NCBI GenBank assembly: GCA_900541565.1
Contig: UQKB01000029.1
Span: 1 to 18,869, forward strand
Direction of reading: 5' to 3'
Source: an uncultured Oscillospiraceae bacterium
GTDB taxonomy: Bacteria > Bacillota > Clostridia > Oscillospirales > Acutalibacteraceae
DNA: 18,869 nt
Below the pieces are notes generated by a model. The model worked only from the letters and a program-made list of their open reading frames with translations, was not told where the DNA came from and searched no databases. Below are positions 4,652-12,637 of the stretch, in pieces (the first letter of the stretch is position 1; every line of letters begins with the position of its first letter). Made by a program: the position numbers and the translations under genes.

Positions 4652-5482
4652 TTACAAAGATAGGATATATTTTTCCAATGCATATGCTACTGCGTTTTGA
4701 TCGTTGGTCGGCAAAATTTCCGCAGCGGCCTGTTTTGCTTTGGAAGATGCATTTGCCACTGCAAGCGGAATACCCGCATAGGCAAGCATGGACAAATCGT
4801 TGCCACTGTCGCCAATTGCAAGCACCTCTTGCCTTTTTACGCCAAGCAGCTGAGATAAGCTTTGCAGTGCCCGACCCTTTGTCGCCGTTTTGCTGTTGAT
4901 TTCCACATTGGTTTCCATCGATCCGGTAATTTCTACGGTATTTCCAAACACCTGTACGTCGTTTAAAAACTGCCGCCTGTGATCCAAATTGCCAAAAAAT
5001 ATATTGATTTTTTCCACCGGCGCCATATGCCGATCAAAAAAAGCCTGCAGATCCTGCACGCCTGTGCGGGTGCTTTGTACCAACTCCTTTAGCCGGGGCG
5101 TTACACCGTAAGCGGTTAAATCTTTCAGCTTGTGCTGCTCAACAAAAACATTTCCGTCCATATAAAGCTCGCACATGCACCGATACCGCGACGCAAAAGA
5201 AATGGCTTGCCCGGCTGTTTTTCTGTCCAGACAATCTGAAAAAAGCAACTTTTGATCTTCCATACGCAAAACCTTTGCCCCATTGGCCATAATGCAGTAA
5301 CGCACCTGCGGAAGATCTATCAGCGCCCGCGGCATTTCCGCATTGGTTCTTCCTGTACATGGGATCACAAGCACACCCTTTTTTGCCGCCTGTATAATCG
5401 CATGCTTATTCTGCTTTGAAAGCTTTGCGCGATTGTCAAGCGTAGTTCCGTCAAGATCAAGCGCCGCTATTTTAACCGGCAT
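4652..5482 (-). CDS. Cof-type HAD-superfamily phosphatase
   Basis: The 276-residue protein belongs to the HAD IIB (Cof) group of cytosolic sugar-phosphate or cofactor phosphatases. The nucleophile and acid/base Asp9 and Asp11 lie in ALDLDGTTLD. Motif II is in IPCTGRT, the motif III Lys in KTATKG, and the metal-binding motif IV in GDSGNDL. The middle of the protein is the mobile C2-type cap. An AGGGCGGAG-like ribosome binding site precedes the ATG at 5482. It is first in an operon with the sirtuin, led by a strong sigma-A promoter. The exact substrate is not readable from sequence. Confidence 0.93.
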   Translation of the reverse strand: MPVKIAALDLDGTTLDNRAKLSKQNKHAIIQAAKKGVLVIPCTGRTNAEMPRALIDLPQVRYCIMANGAKVLRMEDQKLLFSDCLDRKTAGQAISFASRYRCMCELYMDGNVFVEQHKLKDLTAYGVTPRLKELVQSTRTGVQDLQAFFDRHMAPVEKINIFFGNLDHRRQFLNDVQVFGNTVEITGSMETNVEINSKTATKGRALQSLSQLLGVKRQEVLAIGDSGNDLSMLAYAGIPLAVANASSKAKQAAAEILPTNDQNAVAYALEKYILSL

Positions 5483-5752: not shown

Positions 5753-5837
5753 GCACCTGTGGTGGAATTGGCAGACACGATAGATTTAGGTTCTATTGCC
5801 GAAAGGTGTGCAGGTTCAAGTCCTGTCAGGTGCACCA
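5753..5837 (+). tRNA. tRNA-Leu(TAG) with encoded CCA
   Basis: Acceptor arms GCACCTG and CAGGTGC close the gene. The anticodon loop TTTAGGT, with stem ATAGA/TCTAT, gives anticodon TAG, reading CUN leucine codons. A class II variable arm is present, and the T-arm contains GGTTCAAGTCC. Discriminator A and CCA are encoded. Repeat copy A begins at the next base. Confidence 0.95.
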
Positions 5838-5838
5838 C

Positions 5839-5875
5839 GCCGGAGCAAAGTTCGCTTTGCTCCGGCTTATTTTTT
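5839..5875 (+). terminator. tRNA-Leu terminator with TTCG tetraloop
   Basis: A perfect 12-bp stem (arms 5839-5850 and 5855-5866) closes a TTCG loop and is followed by TTATTTTTT. It starts 2 nt after the tRNA CCA. Confidence 0.9.
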
Positions 5876-5894
5876 GCCGAAGGCAAAAAATAAG
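5866..5894 (+). other. Second hairpin sequestering the terminator T-tract
   Basis: CTTATTTTTTGCC (5866-5878) pairs perfectly with 5882-5894 around a GAA loop. The T-tract of the preceding terminator is the left arm of this hairpin. The same arrangement recurs in copy B. Confidence 0.7.
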
Positions 5895-6179
5895 CCATCT
5901 GCCCGCTCCCTTGTCTGCCCTCTTGCGGTATCCGGCTCTGGTTGCGGCGGATAAACCGCCTTGCCAATCGCCGACCGCTGCGCCAACAAATCCTCGCTGT
6001 ATCCCGCACCGCGGGCACTCGGATATGTCGCCCCTTTCCGCAAAACGTCACGCTGCACCTTTGCTGCTCGCTTGTAAACGCGTTCGCAATGCTTCGGCTT
6101 GCTATCAACTTTTTGCGGGTTCCATGTCCATATTCAAATTTTACGTTGGCTTCTCTTTTGCTACCTGTTGACAATCTAA

Positions 6180-6197
6180 AGCAAAGTTCGCTTTGCT
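6180..6197. repeat. Palindromic hairpin repeating the core of the tRNA-Leu terminator
   Basis: The 18-nt palindrome AGCAAAGTTCGCTTTGCT here is identical to 5844-5861, so copy A is bracketed by the same hairpin core. It is not followed by a clear T-tract. Confidence 0.7.
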
Positions 6198-6230
6198 TAC
6201 CTGCTTTGTATCGACATTCTATACCAAGGA

Positions 6231-6262
6231 ACCAATTTTGATTCTGATGCATAAACTATAAT
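6231..6262 (+). promoter_or_regulatory. Sigma-K-like promoter (overlapping a TATAAT) of the Cys-rich operon
   Basis: ACC (6231-6233), 16 nt and GCATAAACTA (CATA at 6250-6253, TA at 6257-6258) match the sigma-K pattern mACm-N16-gCATAnnnTA. The same bases include TATAAT at 6257-6262, but no good sigma-A -35 lies 16-18 nt upstream. Mother-cell expression late in sporulation is an inference. Confidence 0.5.
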
Positions 6263-6289
6263 AGTCTGAATGGAGAGGAGGATATATTT

Positions 6290-6643
6290 TTGGCAGAATG
6301 TACAAACTGTGCAAACGCACTGAATACACCAATAGATACGGAGGATGGAAGCTGTCCGGTAACCGGATATCAAAAAGCATCCGTCTGCGTCCCGGTAATC
6401 GTATCACCATTTGCCCATACGGGCCCGACAGTTACAAAATGCTGCGGCGATCCCATTATTGTTTCCGGTGAAAAACCTTGCCCCGGAAAAAAGAATGGCG
6501 CCTGCGCATTTACAATCAGCCAGACGATATGTGTAGAAGTTCCGGTTAACTTTGGCGCTACGGCTACAGTTGGCGACACGTATGTTGATTGTCTGAATGC
6601 ATCTACAGATGATATCTGTACGAATTGTAAAGAAGGGGATTAA
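6290..6643 (+). CDS. Small cysteine-rich protein, paralogue 1 (possible spore-surface protein)
   Basis: This 117-residue protein has 12 cysteines and no signal peptide or membrane helix. It starts at TTG, supported by AGGAGG (6276-6281) 8 nt upstream. No in-frame ATG fits. The core runs from a CxxTGYQ motif, through a V-rich segment and CCGxP, to a Thr-Ile-Ser/Thr-Gln strand and VPV, and ends in a single Cys. The next gene shares the same order, so they are tandem paralogues. The Cys pairs and beta-rich composition would suit a crosslinked coat or exosporium layer. That role rests on composition and the sigma-K-like promoter only, as I do not recognise a named family. Confidence 0.8.
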   Translation: MAECTNCANALNTPIDTEDGSCPVTGYQKASVCVPVIVSPFAHTGPTVTKCCGDPIIVSGEKPCPGKKNGACAFTISQTICVEVPVNFGATATVGDTYVDCLNASTDDICTNCKEGD

Positions 6644-6645
6644 AA

Positions 6646-6984
6646 ATGGGACCAAATACAACGTATGAAGCACAACAGGAGTTTGTAAAAACTGCGTGCA
6701 ACTGTCCGGAAGACGCCTGTGTGAAGACCGGATATCAATATGCGGATATCAGCGTGCCGATGGAGCTTAAGCCAAGTGCAACACTTGGCGATATCATCAT
6801 GGAGTGTTGTGGAGAACCGGATGTTGATTGCCGGGAAAGCAAATGCGGGGACAGCTGTGAAATTACTATCACGCAAAAGGTTAGCATCAAAATACCGGTG
6901 CATTATCAGGTGTCCGCCTGTGTGGGTAATAGCACCATAAACTGTATTTGCGACGCATCCTGTTGCCAAAAAAAGCAATTGTAA
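6646..6984 (+). CDS. Small cysteine-rich protein, paralogue 2
   Basis: This 112-residue protein has 13 cysteines. It aligns with its upstream neighbour across CxKTGYQ, a VPM strand, MECCGEP, an ITITQKVSIKIPV strand and a terminal NC. It also has a distinct CxCDASCC tail. It starts 2 nt after the neighbour's stop, with AAGGGG upstream of ATG, so the pair is translated from one mRNA. The isolated CC pair and TGYQ motif are conserved between the paralogues, and several other cysteines are not. Function is unknown, and any spore-coat role is inferred from the shared promoter. Confidence 0.82.
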   Translation: MGPNTTYEAQQEFVKTACNCPEDACVKTGYQYADISVPMELKPSATLGDIIMECCGEPDVDCRESKCGDSCEITITQKVSIKIPVHYQVSACVGNSTINCICDASCCQKKQL

Positions 6985-7045
6985 AACGTTGCTGAAATCC
7001 GTTCCAAGTACAGCAAATTTTCAGTAGCGCTTTTTCGTTTTAATA

Positions 7046-7096
7046 CACCTGTTGCAATCTGAATCCTCTGGGATTTGGACGGCAACAGGTGTTTTT
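7046..7096 (+). terminator. Terminator of the Cys-rich operon
   Basis: CACCTGTTGC (7046-7055) pairs with 7082-7091 and is followed by TTTTT. The loop contains an inner hairpin, AATCC-TCTG-GGATT (7062-7075). Confidence 0.85.
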
Positions 7097-7143
7097 GCAT
7101 CTGCTCTTTAACAAAATAGTATTGACAAATTTTCTTTAAAATT

Positions 7144-7168
7144 TTAACCCGGCATCTCTTTTGCTGCC
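7144..7168 (+). repeat. Orphan tail of the tRNA-anchored repeat (copy C)
   Basis: GGCATCTCTTTTGCTGCC (7151-7168), preceded by ATTTTAACC, matches the right ends of copy B (GGCATCTTTTTTGCTGCC, 11405-11422) and copy A (6148-6165). No upstream part of the repeat and no tRNA gene accompanies it. Confidence 0.5.
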
Positions 7169-7270
7169 GACCTTTTGTGGGGTGTGCAGGGTTTCAAGCA
7201 ACAAAATTTCTGCATTTTTAAGAAGGTCTTTCTGTTAACGCTTCATGCGTTGAAATCATTGCAGCCCATT

Positions 7271-7302
7271 AAAAAAGCCAAGCCTTTCGGCTGGGCTTTT
7301 CT
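7271..7302. terminator. Bidirectional terminator between the Cys-rich operon and metal ATPase
   Basis: Arms 7273-7284 and 7289-7300 form an 11-pair stem with one A-G mismatch, flanked by A-run and T-run. On the minus strand the loop is GAAA and the T-run is six T's, so it serves best as the ATPase terminator. Confidence 0.8.
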
Positions 7303-7338
7303 CATACCGTGGCGTTATGCCTTTTTACAGAAAAGCAA

Positions 7339-7373
7339 TCCCGCCTGCTGGGACTGTTCGCTTACAGGCGGGA
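7339..7373 (-). terminator. Additional hairpin directly 3' of the ATPase gene
   Basis: TCCCGCCTG (7339-7347) pairs with CAGGCGGGA (7365-7373). On the minus strand it lies 8 nt past the ATPase stop and is followed by a weak T-rich ATTGCTTTTC. It may stabilise the 3' end or terminate in tandem with the 7271 hairpin. Confidence 0.55.
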
Positions 7374-7380
7374 CGGAAGG

Positions 7381-9252
7381 CTACCTTCTTTTTTTCCATT
7401 TCAATAAAAACGCCGAGTTTATAATCACAAGGACAGAACCCGCATTATGCACCAGCGCGCCGAACACCGGGTTTAAAATACCCGTCATAGCAAGAATAAT
7501 TGCAATAAAATTGAGCAGCATAGAAAACGTTAAATTGCATTTGATTGTGGTCATCATCCGCTTAGACAAAGCCAGCAAGTGCGGCAGCTCTTTAATTTCA
7601 TCATTCACAAGCGCAATATCCGCGGCATCTACGGCAATGTCGCTTCCAACACCGCCCATTGCGATGCCCACATTTGCCTTTTTCAGCGCTGGCGCGTCGT
7701 TTATACCGTCGCCGACCATACAAATAGAGGTATCCTTTTTCTGGCAGTTGTCAATCCAGTTAAGCTTATCTTCCGGCAGGCAGTCTGCATGCACTTGGCT
7801 GATATGCACCTGCCTTGCAACCGTTTGTGCGGTATGTTCATGGTCGCCTGTCAGCAAAACCGGCTGTATTTTCAGCGCCGTTATACGCTTGACCATTTCT
7901 GCGCTTTCCGGGCGCACCGTGTCGGCCAGGACAAGGTACCCCGCTAAAATTTTATCCACCGCAACATAAATGACGGTACATCCCTGCGACAGATAAGCTT
8001 CAACCCCCGAAAGTGTGTTCTCTGTTCCCAAAACGCCATGCTCGGCAAGCAGCTGCAAATTCCCCGCAAGGATCTCCCTGCCCTCTACGCGGGCCGACAC
8101 ACCCCGGCCCGGCAGCATTTGAAATTGCTCCGGCTGCAAAAGCGGTTTTTCTGTCTTTTGCTGATAGCAGCATACCACCGCCTTGCCCAGCGGGTGCTCC
8201 GAGCGCTGCTCCGCCGCGGCGACCAGTGCATAAAGCTTTTCTTCCGTATATTGCGGCAAAAGGCTGCAAATTGCCGTTACCTGCGGCGTACCGTAAGTCA
8301 GCGTACCGGTTTTGTCAAACGCGACCTTCGATACGCCGGCCAACCGCTCCAACGCATCGCCTTCGCGCACAAGGAAACCATGCTTTGTCGCATTACCGAT
8401 TGCCGCCATAATCGCTGTAGGCGTGGCCAGTACAAGCGCACATGGACAGAAAACGACCAAAATGGTAACAGCGCGGATGATTTCACCTGTGATCAGCCAC
8501 GTTAGCGCTGCCGCGCTGAGCGCAATGATTACAATCCACGTCGCCCAGCGGTCAGCAATTCCTACAATTTTTGCCTTACCGGCATCCGCCGATTGCACCA
8601 GACGGATCATTCGCTGAATGGAGCTATCCTCACCTACCCTTGTGGCCCGCATGTCAAATGCGCCGAACTGGTTGACCGTCCCGCTTGCAACCTCATCCCC
8701 GGCGGTTTTATCCACCGGCAGAGATTCACCCGTCATCACAGCCTGATTGACCGAGGTTTGGCCTGATAAAATCACGCCGTCGACCGGAATCGATTCCCCG
8801 GGCAGCACACGCAGTACATTGCCGACTTGCACCTGCTCTGCAGGAATAATTTTTTCTCTGCTGTCAGTCAGCACCCTTGCAGTCTGCGGGGTAAGATGGA
8901 CAAGCTTTTCTATACCCGCCCTTGCCTTTGCTACCGTCAGGTCTTCCAGCAATGCACCCAGCTGCATAATAAACGCCACTTCACCCGCTGCAAAGGTTTC
9001 GCCAATGATAACAGAAGCGATCAGCGCAAGCGAAACAAGAACATCCGCTTTTATGTCAAACGCGGTAACCAGCCCTATCACCGCCTCCAGCACAATGGGG
9101 ACCCCGCAAAGCACAATGGCAATCCAGGCTGCATCAAAGGGCAGCAAAAACAAATCAAAAAGGCTTATCAGCAGCGCAAGGCCTGACAAAACCAGACAAA
9201 TAATGTCTTTCTTTACACCGCCCCACTCCAGAAACTTTTCAAGCTTTTTCAT
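7381..9252 (-). CDS. Heavy-metal translocating P1B-type ATPase
   Basis: The 623-residue pump exports a metal cation using ATP. Actuator motif TGES is at 174-177, membrane CPC at 269-271, phosphorylated Asp313 in DKTGT, the HP signature at 353-354 and GDGIND at 514-519. There is no N-terminal CxxC metal-binding domain. The last membrane helix carries HNAGS (602-606) and a following NS. This is neither the HEGGT of P1B-4 nor the Met/Ser pattern of Cu+ P1B-1 pumps. AGGAGG lies 7 nt before the ATG at 9252, so the upstream in-frame ATG at 9369 is rejected because it sits outside the promoter. A CsoR-type operator in the promoter, and csoR next door, suggest copper or another thiophilic metal. Confidence 0.93.
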   Translation of the reverse strand: MKKLEKFLEWGGVKKDIICLVLSGLALLISLFDLFLLPFDAAWIAIVLCGVPIVLEAVIGLVTAFDIKADVLVSLALIASVIIGETFAAGEVAFIMQLGALLEDLTVAKARAGIEKLVHLTPQTARVLTDSREKIIPAEQVQVGNVLRVLPGESIPVDGVILSGQTSVNQAVMTGESLPVDKTAGDEVASGTVNQFGAFDMRATRVGEDSSIQRMIRLVQSADAGKAKIVGIADRWATWIVIIALSAAALTWLITGEIIRAVTILVVFCPCALVLATPTAIMAAIGNATKHGFLVREGDALERLAGVSKVAFDKTGTLTYGTPQVTAICSLLPQYTEEKLYALVAAAEQRSEHPLGKAVVCCYQQKTEKPLLQPEQFQMLPGRGVSARVEGREILAGNLQLLAEHGVLGTENTLSGVEAYLSQGCTVIYVAVDKILAGYLVLADTVRPESAEMVKRITALKIQPVLLTGDHEHTAQTVARQVHISQVHADCLPEDKLNWIDNCQKKDTSICMVGDGINDAPALKKANVGIAMGGVGSDIAVDAADIALVNDEIKELPHLLALSKRMMTTIKCNLTFSMLLNFIAIILAMTGILNPVFGALVHNAGSVLVIINSAFLLKWKKRR

Positions 9253-9285
9253 GTTTACCTCCTTTTGCGTATAAACTGCGCCTTC

Positions 9286-9314
9286 ATTATACCTATAGGG
9301 GTATAGGTTGTCAA
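9286..9314 (-). promoter_or_regulatory. Metal ATPase promoter with CsoR-type operator in the spacer
   Basis: On the minus strand TTGACA (9309-9314), 17 nt and TATAAT (9286-9291) are both consensus. The spacer contains ACCTATACCCCTATAGGT (9291-9308), a perfect 7-bp inverted repeat around CCCC. It resembles the C-tract palindromes bound by CsoR/RcnR-family repressors. A repressor bound there would block both hexamers. Confidence 0.9.
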
Positions 9315-9316
9315 GA

Positions 9317-9353
9317 GAAAAAAAGAAAAAGCCGCCACCTTGACCGCTTTTTC
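9317..9353 (-). terminator. csoR terminator
   Basis: On the minus strand GAAAAAGC (9346-9353) pairs with GCTTTTTC (9325-9332) around a 13-nt loop and is followed by TTTTTTTC. It ends just before the ATPase -35, so the two genes are separate units. Confidence 0.7.
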
Positions 9354-9368
9354 TCACGCCTTTCAGCA

Positions 9369-9644
9369 TTAAGACATATTGGAAAAACGCTCTACGGCTT
9401 TTGTAAAGCTTTTTATGGTTTTATCGGCATCCCCGTGTTCGATCCCATCGCGGACACAGTGCTGAATATGTCCCTCCAGCACAACCTGCCCGGCTTTATG
9501 CAGTGCTGATTTTGCAGCGTTGATCTGTGCAAGTATGTCCTCACAGGGAACATCCTGATCGATCATACGGTCGATCGCCTGTACCTGACCAATAATTTTT
9601 CTTAAGCGGCGGTGCAGATTGTCTGCATCCATACACTGCCTCAT
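9369..9644 (-). CDS. csoR: CsoR-family metal-sensing repressor
   Basis: The 91-residue all-helical DUF156/CsoR-family repressor has the Cu(I) signature: Cys34 in DVPCEDIL, then His59 and Cys63 in GHIQHC. Cu binding in CsoR releases DNA. RcnR-type (extra His) and CstR-type (two Cys, no His) patterns do not fit. The start is the ATG at 9644, because AGGGAGG (9651-9657) lies 6 nt upstream. The in-frame ATG six bases earlier is too close. It has its own promoter, and a probable operator sits in the ATPase promoter. The only nearby target is the ATPase. Confidence 0.92.
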   Translation of the reverse strand: MRQCMDADNLHRRLRKIIGQVQAIDRMIDQDVPCEDILAQINAAKSALHKAGQVVLEGHIQHCVRDGIEHGDADKTIKSFTKAVERFSNMS

Positions 9645-9682
9645 ATGCATCCTCCCTGTTTTTAAGAGATCCATTATGGCTT

Positions 9683-9711
9683 ATTGTAGTTGCGCCGGCG
9701 CGCTTTGTCAA
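9683..9711 (-). promoter_or_regulatory. Sigma-A promoter of csoR with a GCGCCGGCGC palindrome in the spacer
   Basis: On the minus strand TTGACA (9706-9711), 17 nt and TACAAT (9683-9688). The spacer holds the perfect palindrome GCGCCGGCGC, and the -35 overlaps the stop codon of the GGDEF gene. Confidence 0.8.
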
Positions 9712-10298
9712 GCCGTTTTGCCGCTGTGATACACTGCATAGGTATTTTTTCCTTTTTCCTTTGCCTTATAAAGCGCCTGGTCTGCCTGCTGGTAATATGT
9801 GTAAAACTCGGCGGCCGGATCACACAAACATAAAAAAGCGATCCCAACAGAAGCCGCAACAAAGCCGGCCGTATCTCCTTCAAGGCAAATCTGGTTTAAT
9901 TGATCGCAAAGCGACTGTGCAAGGTTGCAAATGGCCTGCTTACTGCATGCAGCCGTCAGAACGGTAAATTCATCTCCTCCAAAGCGCGCAATGACGGCTT
10001 GTGTGCCAAACGTGCCGCGCAGGATATCCGCCGTCTTCTGCAGCACACGGTCCCCCTGCATATGTCCCAATGTATCGTTAATCTGTTTAAAATTGTCTAT
10101 ATCCAACATCAAAAGGGCCGCTGTTTGCGCTTTAAATCGGCTTTTTCCTTTCAGGTAGTCTGTCACCTTTTCCTGGAAAGCAAAGCGGTTGTACAGTCCC
10201 GTTAAAAGGTCGCGCTCTTTATACTGCCGCAGTTCCCTTTTGAGCATTTCCATTTCTTCTTCCAGCTTATGCACCTTTTGTAGCGCTTCGTTTTCCAC
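9708..10298 (-). CDS. Stand-alone GGDEF protein (probable diguanylate cyclase)
   Basis: The 196-residue protein has a short coiled-coil N-terminus (about 5-28), then a single GGDEF domain with intact RFGGDEF (105-111). It can thus be expected to make c-di-GMP from two GTP in the cytosol. The RxxD inhibitory site normally 5 residues before GGDEF is absent (GTQA here). No sensor, membrane helix or EAL domain is attached. The GTG start at 10298 is supported by GGAGGGG 5 nt upstream. It has its own promoter. Confidence 0.92.
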   Translation of the reverse strand: MENEALQKVHKLEEEMEMLKRELRQYKERDLLTGLYNRFAFQEKVTDYLKGKSRFKAQTAALLMLDIDNFKQINDTLGHMQGDRVLQKTADILRGTFGTQAVIARFGGDEFTVLTAACSKQAICNLAQSLCDQLNQICLEGDTAGFVAASVGIAFLCLCDPAAEFYTYYQQADQALYKAKEKGKNTYAVYHSGKTA

Positions 10299-10336
10299 GG
10301 CAACCCCTCCGCAACAGACTATTTTAATCCAGCCAT

Positions 10337-10365
10337 ATCTTATAATCGTTTTACAGATTTGTCAA
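10337..10365 (-). promoter_or_regulatory. Sigma-A promoter of the GGDEF gene
   Basis: On the minus strand TTGACA (10360-10365), 17 nt and TAAGAT (10337-10342). Predicted leader of about 30-35 nt. Confidence 0.7.
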
Positions 10366-10380
10366 TGCCCTGCCATTTAA

Positions 10381-10509
10381 TATGCGCATACCAATTTTTA
10401 TATGAAAAATTGGGACAAGCAATATACAGCGGCCACCGCTTTACATAACCTTTTTAAAAAGAGGCGCGGCGGCGTGAGTAAACCGATGACTTTTCTAAAA
10501 AGAAAAGTC
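10381..10509. repeat. Cluster of short palindromes in a gene-free gap
   Basis: In order: the palindrome TATGCGCATA (10381-10390); CCAATTTTT paired with AAAAATTGG (10391-10413); AGCGG-CCA-CCGCT (10428-10440); CTTTTTAAAAAG (10450-10461); and GACTTTTC paired with GAAAAGTC (10488-10509). The last arm overlaps the tRNA-Ser terminator. No ORF or RNA gene is seen here. Confidence 0.6.
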
Positions 10510-10536
10510 GTCGCGGACGATCGTCCGCGACGACTT
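10496..10536 (-). terminator. tRNA-Ser terminator built on a 32-bp perfect palindrome
   Basis: Positions 10505-10536 read identically on both strands, centred between 10520 and 10521. On the minus strand it starts at the last base of the tRNA CCA and is followed by TTCTTTTTA. Confidence 0.85.
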
Positions 10537-10625
10537 GGCGGAGAAGAAGGGATTTGAACCCTTGCGCCGGTTACCCGGCCTACTCCCTTAGCAGGGGAGC
10601 CTCTTCACCACTTGAGTACTTCTCC
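10536..10625 (-). tRNA. tRNA-Ser(GCT) with encoded CCA
   Basis: Acceptor GGAGAAG pairs with CTTCTCC, and the discriminator is G followed by CCA. Anticodon stem CTCCC/GGGAG with loop CTGCTAA gives GCT (AGC/AGU serine codons). A long class II variable arm is present. It is the second gene of a tRNA-Ser pair. Confidence 0.95.
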
Positions 10626-10674
10626 AGCAATCCAATATTCTATTATAAACATGGAAACAGAAAAATTTTTGGTG

Positions 10675-10763
10675 TGGCGGAGGGGAAGGGATTCGAACCC
10701 TTGGTCCCTTTCGGAATCACTAGTTTTCAAGACTAGCTCCTTAAACCGCTCGGACACCCCTCC
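10675..10763 (-). tRNA. tRNA-Ser(TGA) with encoded CCA
   Basis: Acceptor GGAGGGG pairs with CCCCTCC, with discriminator G and CCA. Anticodon stem CTAGT/ACTAG with loop CTTGAAA gives TGA (UCN codons). The variable arm is long, and the T-arm contains GGTTCGAATCC. Confidence 0.95.
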
Positions 10764-10781
10764 GAATAATCGGCAAGAAAT

Positions 10782-10810
10782 ATGTTACCATACCCGCCTT
10801 GCAATGTCAA
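10782..10810 (-). promoter_or_regulatory. Sigma-A promoter of the tRNA-Ser pair
   Basis: On the minus strand TTGACA (10805-10810), 17 nt and TAACAT (10782-10787), ending about 19 nt before tRNA-Ser(TGA). Confidence 0.85.
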
Positions 10811-10854
10811 GGGCTTTTTTGTTGCTGTCAGCATGATGGAAATGTCGTTTTTTC

Positions 10855-10883
10855 TTGACAAAAGCCCTAAAATCATATAAAAT
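10855..10883 (+). promoter_or_regulatory. Sigma-A promoter divergent from the tRNA-Ser promoter
   Basis: TTGACA (10855-10860), 17 nt and TAAAAT (10878-10883). It reads into the structured region at 10890-10973 and then tRNA-Arg. Confidence 0.75.
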
Positions 10884-10889
10884 AACGGA

Positions 10890-10973
10890 GTGCCTGAAAA
10901 CGTATACGTTTGTACAGAAGCAGCGTATAAGGAGCTGCCTTTTATGGGAACGTTAAAACGCCCATTTTAAAGG
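10890..10973 (+). ncRNA. Structured small RNA or tRNA-Arg leader candidate
   Basis: About 84 nt after a consensus promoter, with no ORF. It holds three structures: the palindrome AAACGTATACGTTT (10898-10911); GCAGC paired with GCTGC (10920-10938); and ATGGG-AA-CGTT-AA-AACG-CCCAT (10944-10965) followed by TTT. The CCTTT and AAAGG flanks (10938-10973) could extend the last stem. It matches no riboswitch I know. It may be a stand-alone RNA, since tRNA-Arg appears to have its own promoter, or part of its leader. Confidence 0.35.
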
Positions 10974-10981
10974 AAAAAGCA

Positions 10982-11011
10982 TTGGCAAGGTGGTTCACCT
11001 TTCGATAAAAT
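10982..11011 (+). promoter_or_regulatory. Possible own promoter of tRNA-Arg
   Basis: TTGGCA (10982-10987), 18 nt and TAAAAT (11006-11011), ending 7 nt before the first base of the tRNA. This would give almost no leader. Confidence 0.45.
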
Positions 11012-11018
11012 GATATAT

Positions 11019-11095
11019 GTCGCTATAGCTCAGCCGGATAGAGCGACCGCCTCCTAAGCGGTAGGTCGGAGGTTCGAATCCTCTTAGCGACGCCA
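11019..11095 (+). tRNA. tRNA-Arg(CCT) with encoded CCA
   Basis: Acceptor GTCGCTA pairs with TAGCGAC, with G and CCA. Anticodon stem ACCGC/GCGGT with loop CTCCTAA gives CCT (AGG codon). T-arm GGTTCGAATCC. Repeat copy B starts at the next base. Confidence 0.95.
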
Positions 11096-11096
11096 C

Positions 11097-11133
11097 GTCG
11101 GAGCAAAGTCCGCTTTGCTCCGACTTATTTTTT
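11097..11133 (+). terminator. tRNA-Arg terminator with TCCG loop
   Basis: A perfect 12-bp stem (11097-11108 and 11113-11124) is followed by TTATTTTTT. One base pair differs from copy A in a compensatory way: T-A here at the second position, C-G there. Confidence 0.9.
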
Positions 11134-11153
11134 GCCTGCGGCAGAAAAATAAG
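11124..11153 (+). other. Second hairpin sequestering the terminator T-tract in copy B
   Basis: CTTATTTTTTGCC (11124-11136) pairs with 11140-11153 around a TGC loop, with one G bulge relative to copy A. Confidence 0.65.
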
Positions 11154-11430
11154 CCATCCATCCGCTTCCTTGCTTGCCCTCTTGCGGTACCCGGCTCCGG
11201 TTGCGGCGGATAAACCGCCTTGCCAATCGCCGACCGCTACGCCAACAAATCCTTCTGTATCCCGCACCGCGGGCGCTCGGATATGTTGCCCCTTTCCGCA
11301 AAAAGTCATACTGCACCTTCGCTGTTCGCTTGTAAACGCGCTCGCGACGCTTCGACTTGCTATCAACTTTTTGCGGGTTCAAGTCTCCGTCAAGATTTTT
11401 AACTGGCATCTTTTTTGCTGCCTCTTTACA

Positions 11431-12430: not shown

Positions 12431-12637
12431 CTAAATCCAGACGAGATTTAAGTATGACCGTAATTGTATGATGGCATAAACAAGATAGTCTCTGTCCCCT
12501 GTTCGGTCAAAGGACAAATGTTGGAACCAGGACCGCCGCTCTAGCGTGGCTTGCCTGATTGTAAATACACTTGCGATGGTTGCTGTAGCTACCACTCCAT
12601 CAAAGGGCAGCGCCCCGGCAAAACCCAGAGCAGTCAT
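12431..12637 (-). CDS. Unrecognised 68-residue ORF overlapping the exonuclease stop
   Basis: The ATG overlaps the upstream exonuclease TGA (ATGA), the usual geometry for coupled translation. No proper ribosome binding site is seen. The product is hydrophobic at the N-terminus, and then contains SFDRTGDRDYLVYAI, which I cannot assign. It may be a real small gene, the truncated end of a mobile-element gene, or chance. Confidence 0.3.
   Translation of the reverse strand: MTALGFAGALPFDGVVATATIASVFTIRQATLERRSWFQHLSFDRTGDRDYLVYAIIQLRSYLNLVWI

Follow-up and report, generated by a model that had tools for sequence, protein, structure and literature searches.

Two tRNA genes carry related repeats at their 3' ends

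The window analysed here is an 18,869-nt stretch of DNA from an uncultured Oscillospiraceae bacterium (GenBank assembly GCA_900541565.1, contig UQKB01000029.1). ARAGORN places in it a tRNA-Leu(tag) and a tRNA-Arg(cct) gene, each with an encoded CCA and each followed directly by a copy of a noncoding repeat (Table 1), which is probably a mobile element that favours tRNA 3' ends. An alignment of the two copies opens at 5838 and 11096, the first base 3' of each CCA, and extends over 338 columns with 86.4% identity (E 1.7e-110), while an ungapped repeat finder returns three blocks that are 81–92% identical at a spacing of 5258–5259. Resemblance 5' of the two copies is confined to the T-arm region. 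The repeat had been noticed in a sequence-only reading of the window, which had it start at the base after CCA of two tRNAs that are alike only in the T-arm, and the tRNA calls and alignment agree with both points. The same reading had the copies similar along their whole length, at 5838–6172 and 11096–11430. This holds for the similarity and for the end of copy 2 but not for the end of copy 1: judged from relatives, by their right-end motif and their tandem joints, the ends lie at 6173 and 11430. The window copies measure 335–336 bp; where the module termed B is absent, the length is about 205 bp.

The copies are built from four modules

Both window copies are composites of modules A-B-C-D, B being a separate repeat. 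In each, module A is a G+C-rich stem of 12 bp with a T run behind it, the form of an intrinsic terminator. Shuffles of the region yield 1.2 terminator sites on average, so it is the position of the site and the agreement of the partner copy that carry weight. No promoter-like site was found within either window copy. Folded as RNA, the copies outperform their shuffles (z of -5.6 for copy 1 and -4.3 for copy 2, with 0 of 100 shuffles equal), and the main stems measure 12 bp and 11 bp. The left end reads CG(T/C)CGG, with CGTC partly paired, and the right ends read ...TTGACA, ...TTTACA, ...GCCA, ...CCCA or ...CACCA. Tandem copies join head-to-tail at CA|CG (loci L003, L074, L115, L241 and L359). 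Together, the right-end motifs and tandem joints place at least CA, and often CCA, on both sides of the element.

The commonest form in relatives is A-linker-C-D. Module B (117 bp) occurs alone in other genomes, and there is no room for it in the 34 relatives described below in which C lies 65–87 nt behind a tRNA. A window-like A-B-C form is present in genome G546 (78%) and B-C in G675. Module B was also seen in antisense behind tRNA-Ser or tRNA-Met (L058, L083, L091, L077 and L078); it may itself be drawn to tRNA tails. At L017, L070, L072, L074, L082, L128 and L137 a different long hairpin (CCAAATCACAACC..GGTTGTGATTTGG for example) replaces C behind the same A and linker, and the hairpin module seems exchangeable.

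Module C folds into a long hairpin that covaries. In an alignment of 47 copies, 15 of the 22 pairs show changes on both sides. Paired cells amount to 95.2%, against 85.5% in shuffles, which do not preserve relatedness (0 of 500 reach the observed value), and at most 54.2% in slid versions, which do. The outer stem varies, AAAAAGT/ACTTTTT becoming AAAAGGG/CCCTTTT and so on. Two positions in the loop change together, giving either TGTAAAC or TGCAAGC, and the predicted pairing does not account for this linkage. Many D modules open with the T-arm-like sequence GGGTTCRANTC, and this start may derive from a tRNA 3' end or mimic it.

The element had been described as having no open reading frame of its own, and this is correct insofar as the C copies lack codon-position bias, although open frames do run across it: entropy at the three codon positions was 0.470/0.432/0.411 (28 gap-matched of the 47 copies), giving no coding signal in C. 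A coding frame across the element was also discarded after a forward-frame protein search, whose hits, 15 predicted proteins with 14 from one contig, were read as spurious. Within the window, Rfam 15 returned nothing but tRNAs above the gathering cut-off; RF02372 and RF02656 were sub-threshold in 5838–6200.

Copies lie directly behind many different tRNAs

Further copies were brought in by searches that contained no tRNA sequence. A hidden Markov model (HMM) of module C, run over the collected loci, gave 126 distinct copies, 41 from a single genome (G164) and 85 from elsewhere. Outside G164, 34 of the 85 C copies lie 65–87 nt behind a tRNA or transfer-messenger RNA (tmRNA) called by ARAGORN, on the same strand, a distance that puts the start of the element at about +1. 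In both window copies C lies 195 nt behind the tRNA, because module B intervenes. A further 10 of the 85 were classed by pattern as lying behind a T-arm and CCA that belong to no complete tRNA (L189 and L199 appear to be misassigned). Another 14 were classed in the same way as following another copy (L076, L125 and L159 being doubtful), and three lie at contig ends.

Orientation was controlled within 200 nt of the same 85 copies. An upstream tRNA or tmRNA 3' end on the same strand was present in 43, a downstream tRNA on the same strand in none and an opposite-strand tRNA on either side in none. The hosts include tRNAs for Pro, Leu, Arg, Ser, Gln, Gly, Lys, Ala, Glu, Val, Trp, Tyr, Met and Cys as well as tmRNA. 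In ten loci from a later search of the class, a tRNA precedes seven of 11 C copies by 71–84 nt (one of the seven had been counted before) and at least two of the remainder follow a preceding copy.

G164 contains at least 53 matches to R1, the model of module C (150 of 1162 candidates scored), in arrays whose neighbours include genes like glmM (an identification by eye). Nearly identical units were seen in these arrays at distant places and in both orientations (L165, L168–L177).

Orthologous sites are mostly empty and copies group by genome

At tRNA-Leu(tag) of G097, an A-linker-C-D copy of about 205 bp lies between CCA and terminator. In G187, from the same genus, the terminator directly follows the CCA of tRNA-Leu(tag), which represents an empty site. 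The upstream gene region is common to the two genomes (76–78% DNA identity) and their native tRNA-Leu terminators differ in sequence. As the tRNA, the spacing and the terminators all differ, orthology of the two sites rests on the anticodon and the neighbouring region. The third genome of this three-genome genus, G254, gave no match.

Occupancy was also followed at tmRNA, taken as a single-copy site. A match was obtained in 154 of 317 genomes, and 72 loci were inspected, 30 of them as the search returned them, 40 chosen for full length and room and two from loci collected earlier; these contained 70 tmRNA genes, 67 with downstream sequence. An element start lies directly after the tmRNA CCA in three of the 67 (G084, G083 and, as A only, G177). 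A terminator-like hairpin is found 10–170 nt behind C on the same strand in 29 of the 84 copies with sufficient sequence and on the opposite strand in six of 84, and at several loci this second hairpin begins no more than a few bases from the right end. The tally of tRNA-adjacent copies and empty sites that the sequence-only reading had proposed, run here in relatives, thus yields tRNA-linked copies with mostly empty counterparts.

Identity between copies is 84.9% within a genome (n=21), 77.3% between copies behind the same tRNA in other genomes (n=21) and 76.0% for the rest (n=588). In a grouping test on 36 labelled tRNA- or tmRNA-linked copies, none of 2000 permutations of the genome labels reached the within-genome value, while 563 of 2000 permutations of the tRNA labels reached the same-tRNA value. 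Likeness by genome and not by tRNA points to spread or homogenisation within genomes and not to simple inheritance with the tRNA.

Relatives are scattered through the Clostridia

An exact 20-base word of the copies matched a single public genome contig, from Candidatus Schneewindia gallinarum (G001; Clostridia), in which the relative begins at the base after CCA of tRNA-Pro and lacks the middle part. G001 gave 13 matches (E 0.01), and eight of 61 genomes including G001 gave matches at E 0.001. Relatives were found in at least 48 of 396 genomes of the family (1e-6), at least 21 of 394 of the order (1e-12) and at least 33 of 311 of the class (1e-8, with the short form as query); these are lower bounds, since scoring was limited to the two top candidates of each genome. 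R1 matched in 18 of 20 genomes, all of which had been chosen for earlier DNA matches. Many of the relatives' genomes are drafts with copies at contig ends.

To place the window, its HAD protein was compared with the family of G001, where 84 of 396 genomes had a match and identity was at most 36%; its TypA reached at most 65% in genomes that bear the element (47 of 48 with a match). The closest homologues of the HAD protein, seen as proteins, are 87–99% identical.

A phage or plasmid origin was considered and rejected. BLASTN of copy 1 against 50,697 phage and 72,556 plasmid records gave no match. In scans of viral contigs, run without a true-copy positive control, five exact element patterns occurred in 0 contigs and a 17-mer in 20, none R1-positive at E 0.1. 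No such element is named in the open-access literature among the matches listed.

Coordinates and neighbouring features in the window

Table 1. Host tRNA genes, element copies and their modules in the window
Feature	Position	Strand	Basis
tRNA-Leu(tag), encoded CCA, host of copy 1	5753..5837	+	ARAGORN; Rfam RF00005
Element copy 1 (A-B-C-D), base after CCA to ...TTGACA	5838..6173	+	Alignment; right-end motif
Module A, copy 1: intrinsic terminator, 12-bp stem then TTATTTTTTG	5839..5866	+	
Second hairpin, copy 1: terminator T-tract pairs with next A-tract	5866..5894	+	Sequence; self-complementary match
Module B, copy 1: 117-bp separate repeat between A and C	5917..6033	+	Stands alone in other genomes
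Module C, copy 1: 89-nt covarying long hairpin	6032..6120	+	R1 88.1 bits (copy included in model); covariation
Module D, copy 1: right end	6121..6173	+	
tRNA-Arg(cct), encoded CCA, host of copy 2	11019..11095	+	ARAGORN; Rfam RF00005
Element copy 2 (A-B-C-D), base after CCA to ...TTTACA	11096..11430	+	Alignment; right-end motif
Module A, copy 2: intrinsic terminator, 12-bp stem; T-A pair replaces C-G of copy 1	11097..11124	+	
Module B, copy 2	11176..11291	+	
Module C, copy 2	11290..11378	+	R1 88.1 bits (copy included in model)
Module D, copy 2; T-arm-like GGGTTCAAGTC at C/D border	11379..11430	+	

Two further stretches of the forward strand resemble parts of the element. A lone stretch at 7138–7168, between the gene at 6646–6984 and a P-type ATPase gene, is 83% like part of module D and runs on into GGCATCTCTTTTGCTGCC-like sequence; it is perhaps the remnant of another copy. 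The stretch at 12537–12594 matches the C model weakly and in part (18.5 bits, E 0.0028) and is perhaps a decayed copy. Directly 3' of copy 1, the genes at 6290–6643 and 6646–6984 (+) encode small neighbouring cysteine-containing proteins with about 32% mutual identity and no Pfam match.

A probable mobile repeat at the tRNA 3' end

With a probability of roughly 0.7, the element is mobile and non-autonomous, a repeat that prefers to insert at the 3' end of a tRNA or tmRNA gene, between CCA and the native terminator and on the tRNA strand. Behind this interpretation stand the +1 position, the fixed orientation, the element's own terminator in A, the covarying module C, the CA right end, the arrays, the second terminator-like hairpin that follows about a third of the copies, the sporadic occupancy and the likeness of copies within genomes. 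Insertion at, or copying with, tRNA 3' ends had been the preferred explanation of the sequence-only reading, and the many host tRNAs and tmRNA, the single arrangement and the mostly empty orthologous sites support it; a non-autonomous tRNA-targeting element and a mobile terminator cassette, put forward there as separate options, both fit, as one thing. Movement would take place by recombination or transposition. The terminator in A would protect expression of the tRNA and so render the site harmless, the CA or CCA at the right end would recreate the target and permit arrays, and an enzyme supplied in trans may join the element at CA.

Several findings weigh against this interpretation. Of the 85 copies outside G164, 22 were not classed by the script as adjacent to a tRNA, a remnant or another copy; by eye, six of these follow a tRNA-like 3' end in CCA (L024, L087, L109, L129, L245 and L264) and the rest do not. 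L240, an A-B-C-D copy, follows TGCA and no recognisable tRNA. G164 has at least 41 distinct copies, in intergenic arrays of both orientations, and no tRNA was found in its 20 scanned loci L168–L187. Strict tRNA specificity is weakened by these arrays and by the unclassed copies. A preponderance of copies away from tRNAs had been named beforehand as telling against insertion at tRNA ends, and G164 comes close to it. The G187 and G097 sites are the single within-genus pair of empty and occupied sites; their tRNA genes have 75% identity, and the distances to the common neighbour region are 280 and 501 bp. Among the occupied tmRNAs, G084 was the source of the query and G177 was included through its A match, and without both the count is one of 65. 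Among the 29 second terminators, at least four (L004, L027, L104 and L241) represent module A of the following copy. With regard to a mobiliser, a search for Y1_Tnp gave no match in four genomes with C, namely G247, G333, G124 and G242 (drafts that may be incomplete), and insertion sequence (IS) IS200 ends in G164, read at both ends of four copies, are unrelated to the element.

An unlikely alternative is that module C is a structured noncoding RNA, produced by tRNA read-through or trailer processing and kept for a cellular role. The covariation of C is strong, two pairs having U-G as their most frequent type, and C lies on the tRNA strand wherever a tRNA is near. However, an intrinsic terminator separates CCA from C, which also speaks against the earlier proposal of an RNA released from tRNA transcripts; moreover, the window copies contain no promoter-like site, the element is absent at 64 of the 67 tmRNAs inspected, the G164 arrays occur in both orientations without tRNAs and no Rfam family corresponds. 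It is quite unlikely, too, that a tRNA-tail cassette was spread by homologous recombination or gene conversion through T-arm and CCA, with no dedicated transposition. T-arm and CCA are common to tRNAs, the T-arm-like start of many D modules could be viewed in the same light and copies are alike within genomes, but only a very short stretch is shared on the left, the right side has no shared sequence (the terminators that follow differ) and again the G164 arrays exist without tRNAs. Vertical inheritance of an ancestral tRNA terminator in this bacterial group is highly improbable: module A is shaped like a working terminator of these tRNAs, and tRNA-Pro(cgg) carries the element in the distant genomes G097, G001, G177 and G1017, but copies behind the same tRNA elsewhere are hardly more alike than unrelated ones and orthologous sites are mostly empty.

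Relation to known systems and candidate mobilisers

Members of the IS200/IS605 family lack terminal inverted repeats and have subterminal hairpins, a strand-specific target and a left flank that resembles the right end. Non-autonomous elements derived from IS200/IS605, and repetitive extragenic palindromes (REPs) mobilised by REP-associated tyrosine transposases (RAYTs), resemble the element in its fixed strand, its lack of inverted ends, the hairpins near both ends and a left flank similar to the right end. The Y1 transposase family PF01797 occurs in 14 of 20 genomes. IS200 or RAYT as mobiliser is not supported, given the four carriers in which Y1_Tnp was not found and the unrelated IS200 ends of G164. 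In G164, IS200-like copies were observed directly in the T run of terminator-like hairpins (L222 and L230).

Integron cassettes carry attC, an imperfect hairpin, and form directional head-to-tail arrays from a primary site, with crossover at G|TT and RYYYAAC/GTTRRRY boxes. The element shares the folded imperfect hairpin and the head-to-tail arrays, but its joint is CA|CG and not G|TT, and no gene cargo was seen. Genomic islands and phages that insert at tRNA 3' ends have the same target, but here a single element lies behind many unrelated tRNAs and has no match in the phage or plasmid records scanned. A classical tRNA attachment-site duplication was looked for and not seen: at the far end the host tRNA 3' end is not repeated beyond a shared CA or CCA (by eye, at tRNA-Leu of G097 and both window copies).

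Among small repeats, REPs and bacterial interspersed mosaic elements (BIMEs), including the CGTC-tagged REPs of Di Nocera et al. 2013 (PMC3733652), are likewise small, palindromic, present in many copies, extragenic, often downstream of genes and non-coding. In the available portion of that paper, the CGTC-tagged repeats are extragenic palindromes of 20–40 bp with an AT-started stem of 8–9 bp, a CGTC head and a CCA-like tail; the same portion describes no dedicated transposase as having been found and reports no family at tRNA 3' ends. The element's left end and its CCA or ACA right end recall this head and tail, but here CGTC is partly paired, and the resemblance may be coincidental. The element differs in being five to ten times longer (about 205 or 335 bp), in having several hairpins with longer main stems, in joining head-to-tail and not head-to-head and in its place at tRNA CCA.

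By analogy with such systems, the folded hairpins A and C might be read by a trans-acting, strand-specific recombinase of single-strand type, like HUH/Y1 or the one acting on attC, a proposal that is tentative and rather doubtful. It is possible, though we would sooner bet against it, that the element represents a distinct class of mobile element, which targets the CCA-defined 3' end of tRNA and tmRNA genes with strand-specific, hairpin-reading machinery and carries along a terminator to replace the displaced one and a mimic of the tRNA end, such that harmless insertions create new landing sites and arrays. If true, this would be a selfish repeat that solves the safe-harbour problem in bacteria: it would land at the highly conserved, noncoding CCA end of tRNA genes and supply the very terminator that its insertion displaces. 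Surveys that omit tRNA neighbourhoods easily lose such repeats; the available portion of one systematic survey of stem-loop families describes tRNA-related clusters as discarded (PMC2267715). The finding raises the testable question of what recognises tRNA 3' ends, as DNA or as RNA, and copies a 200-bp hairpin element there.

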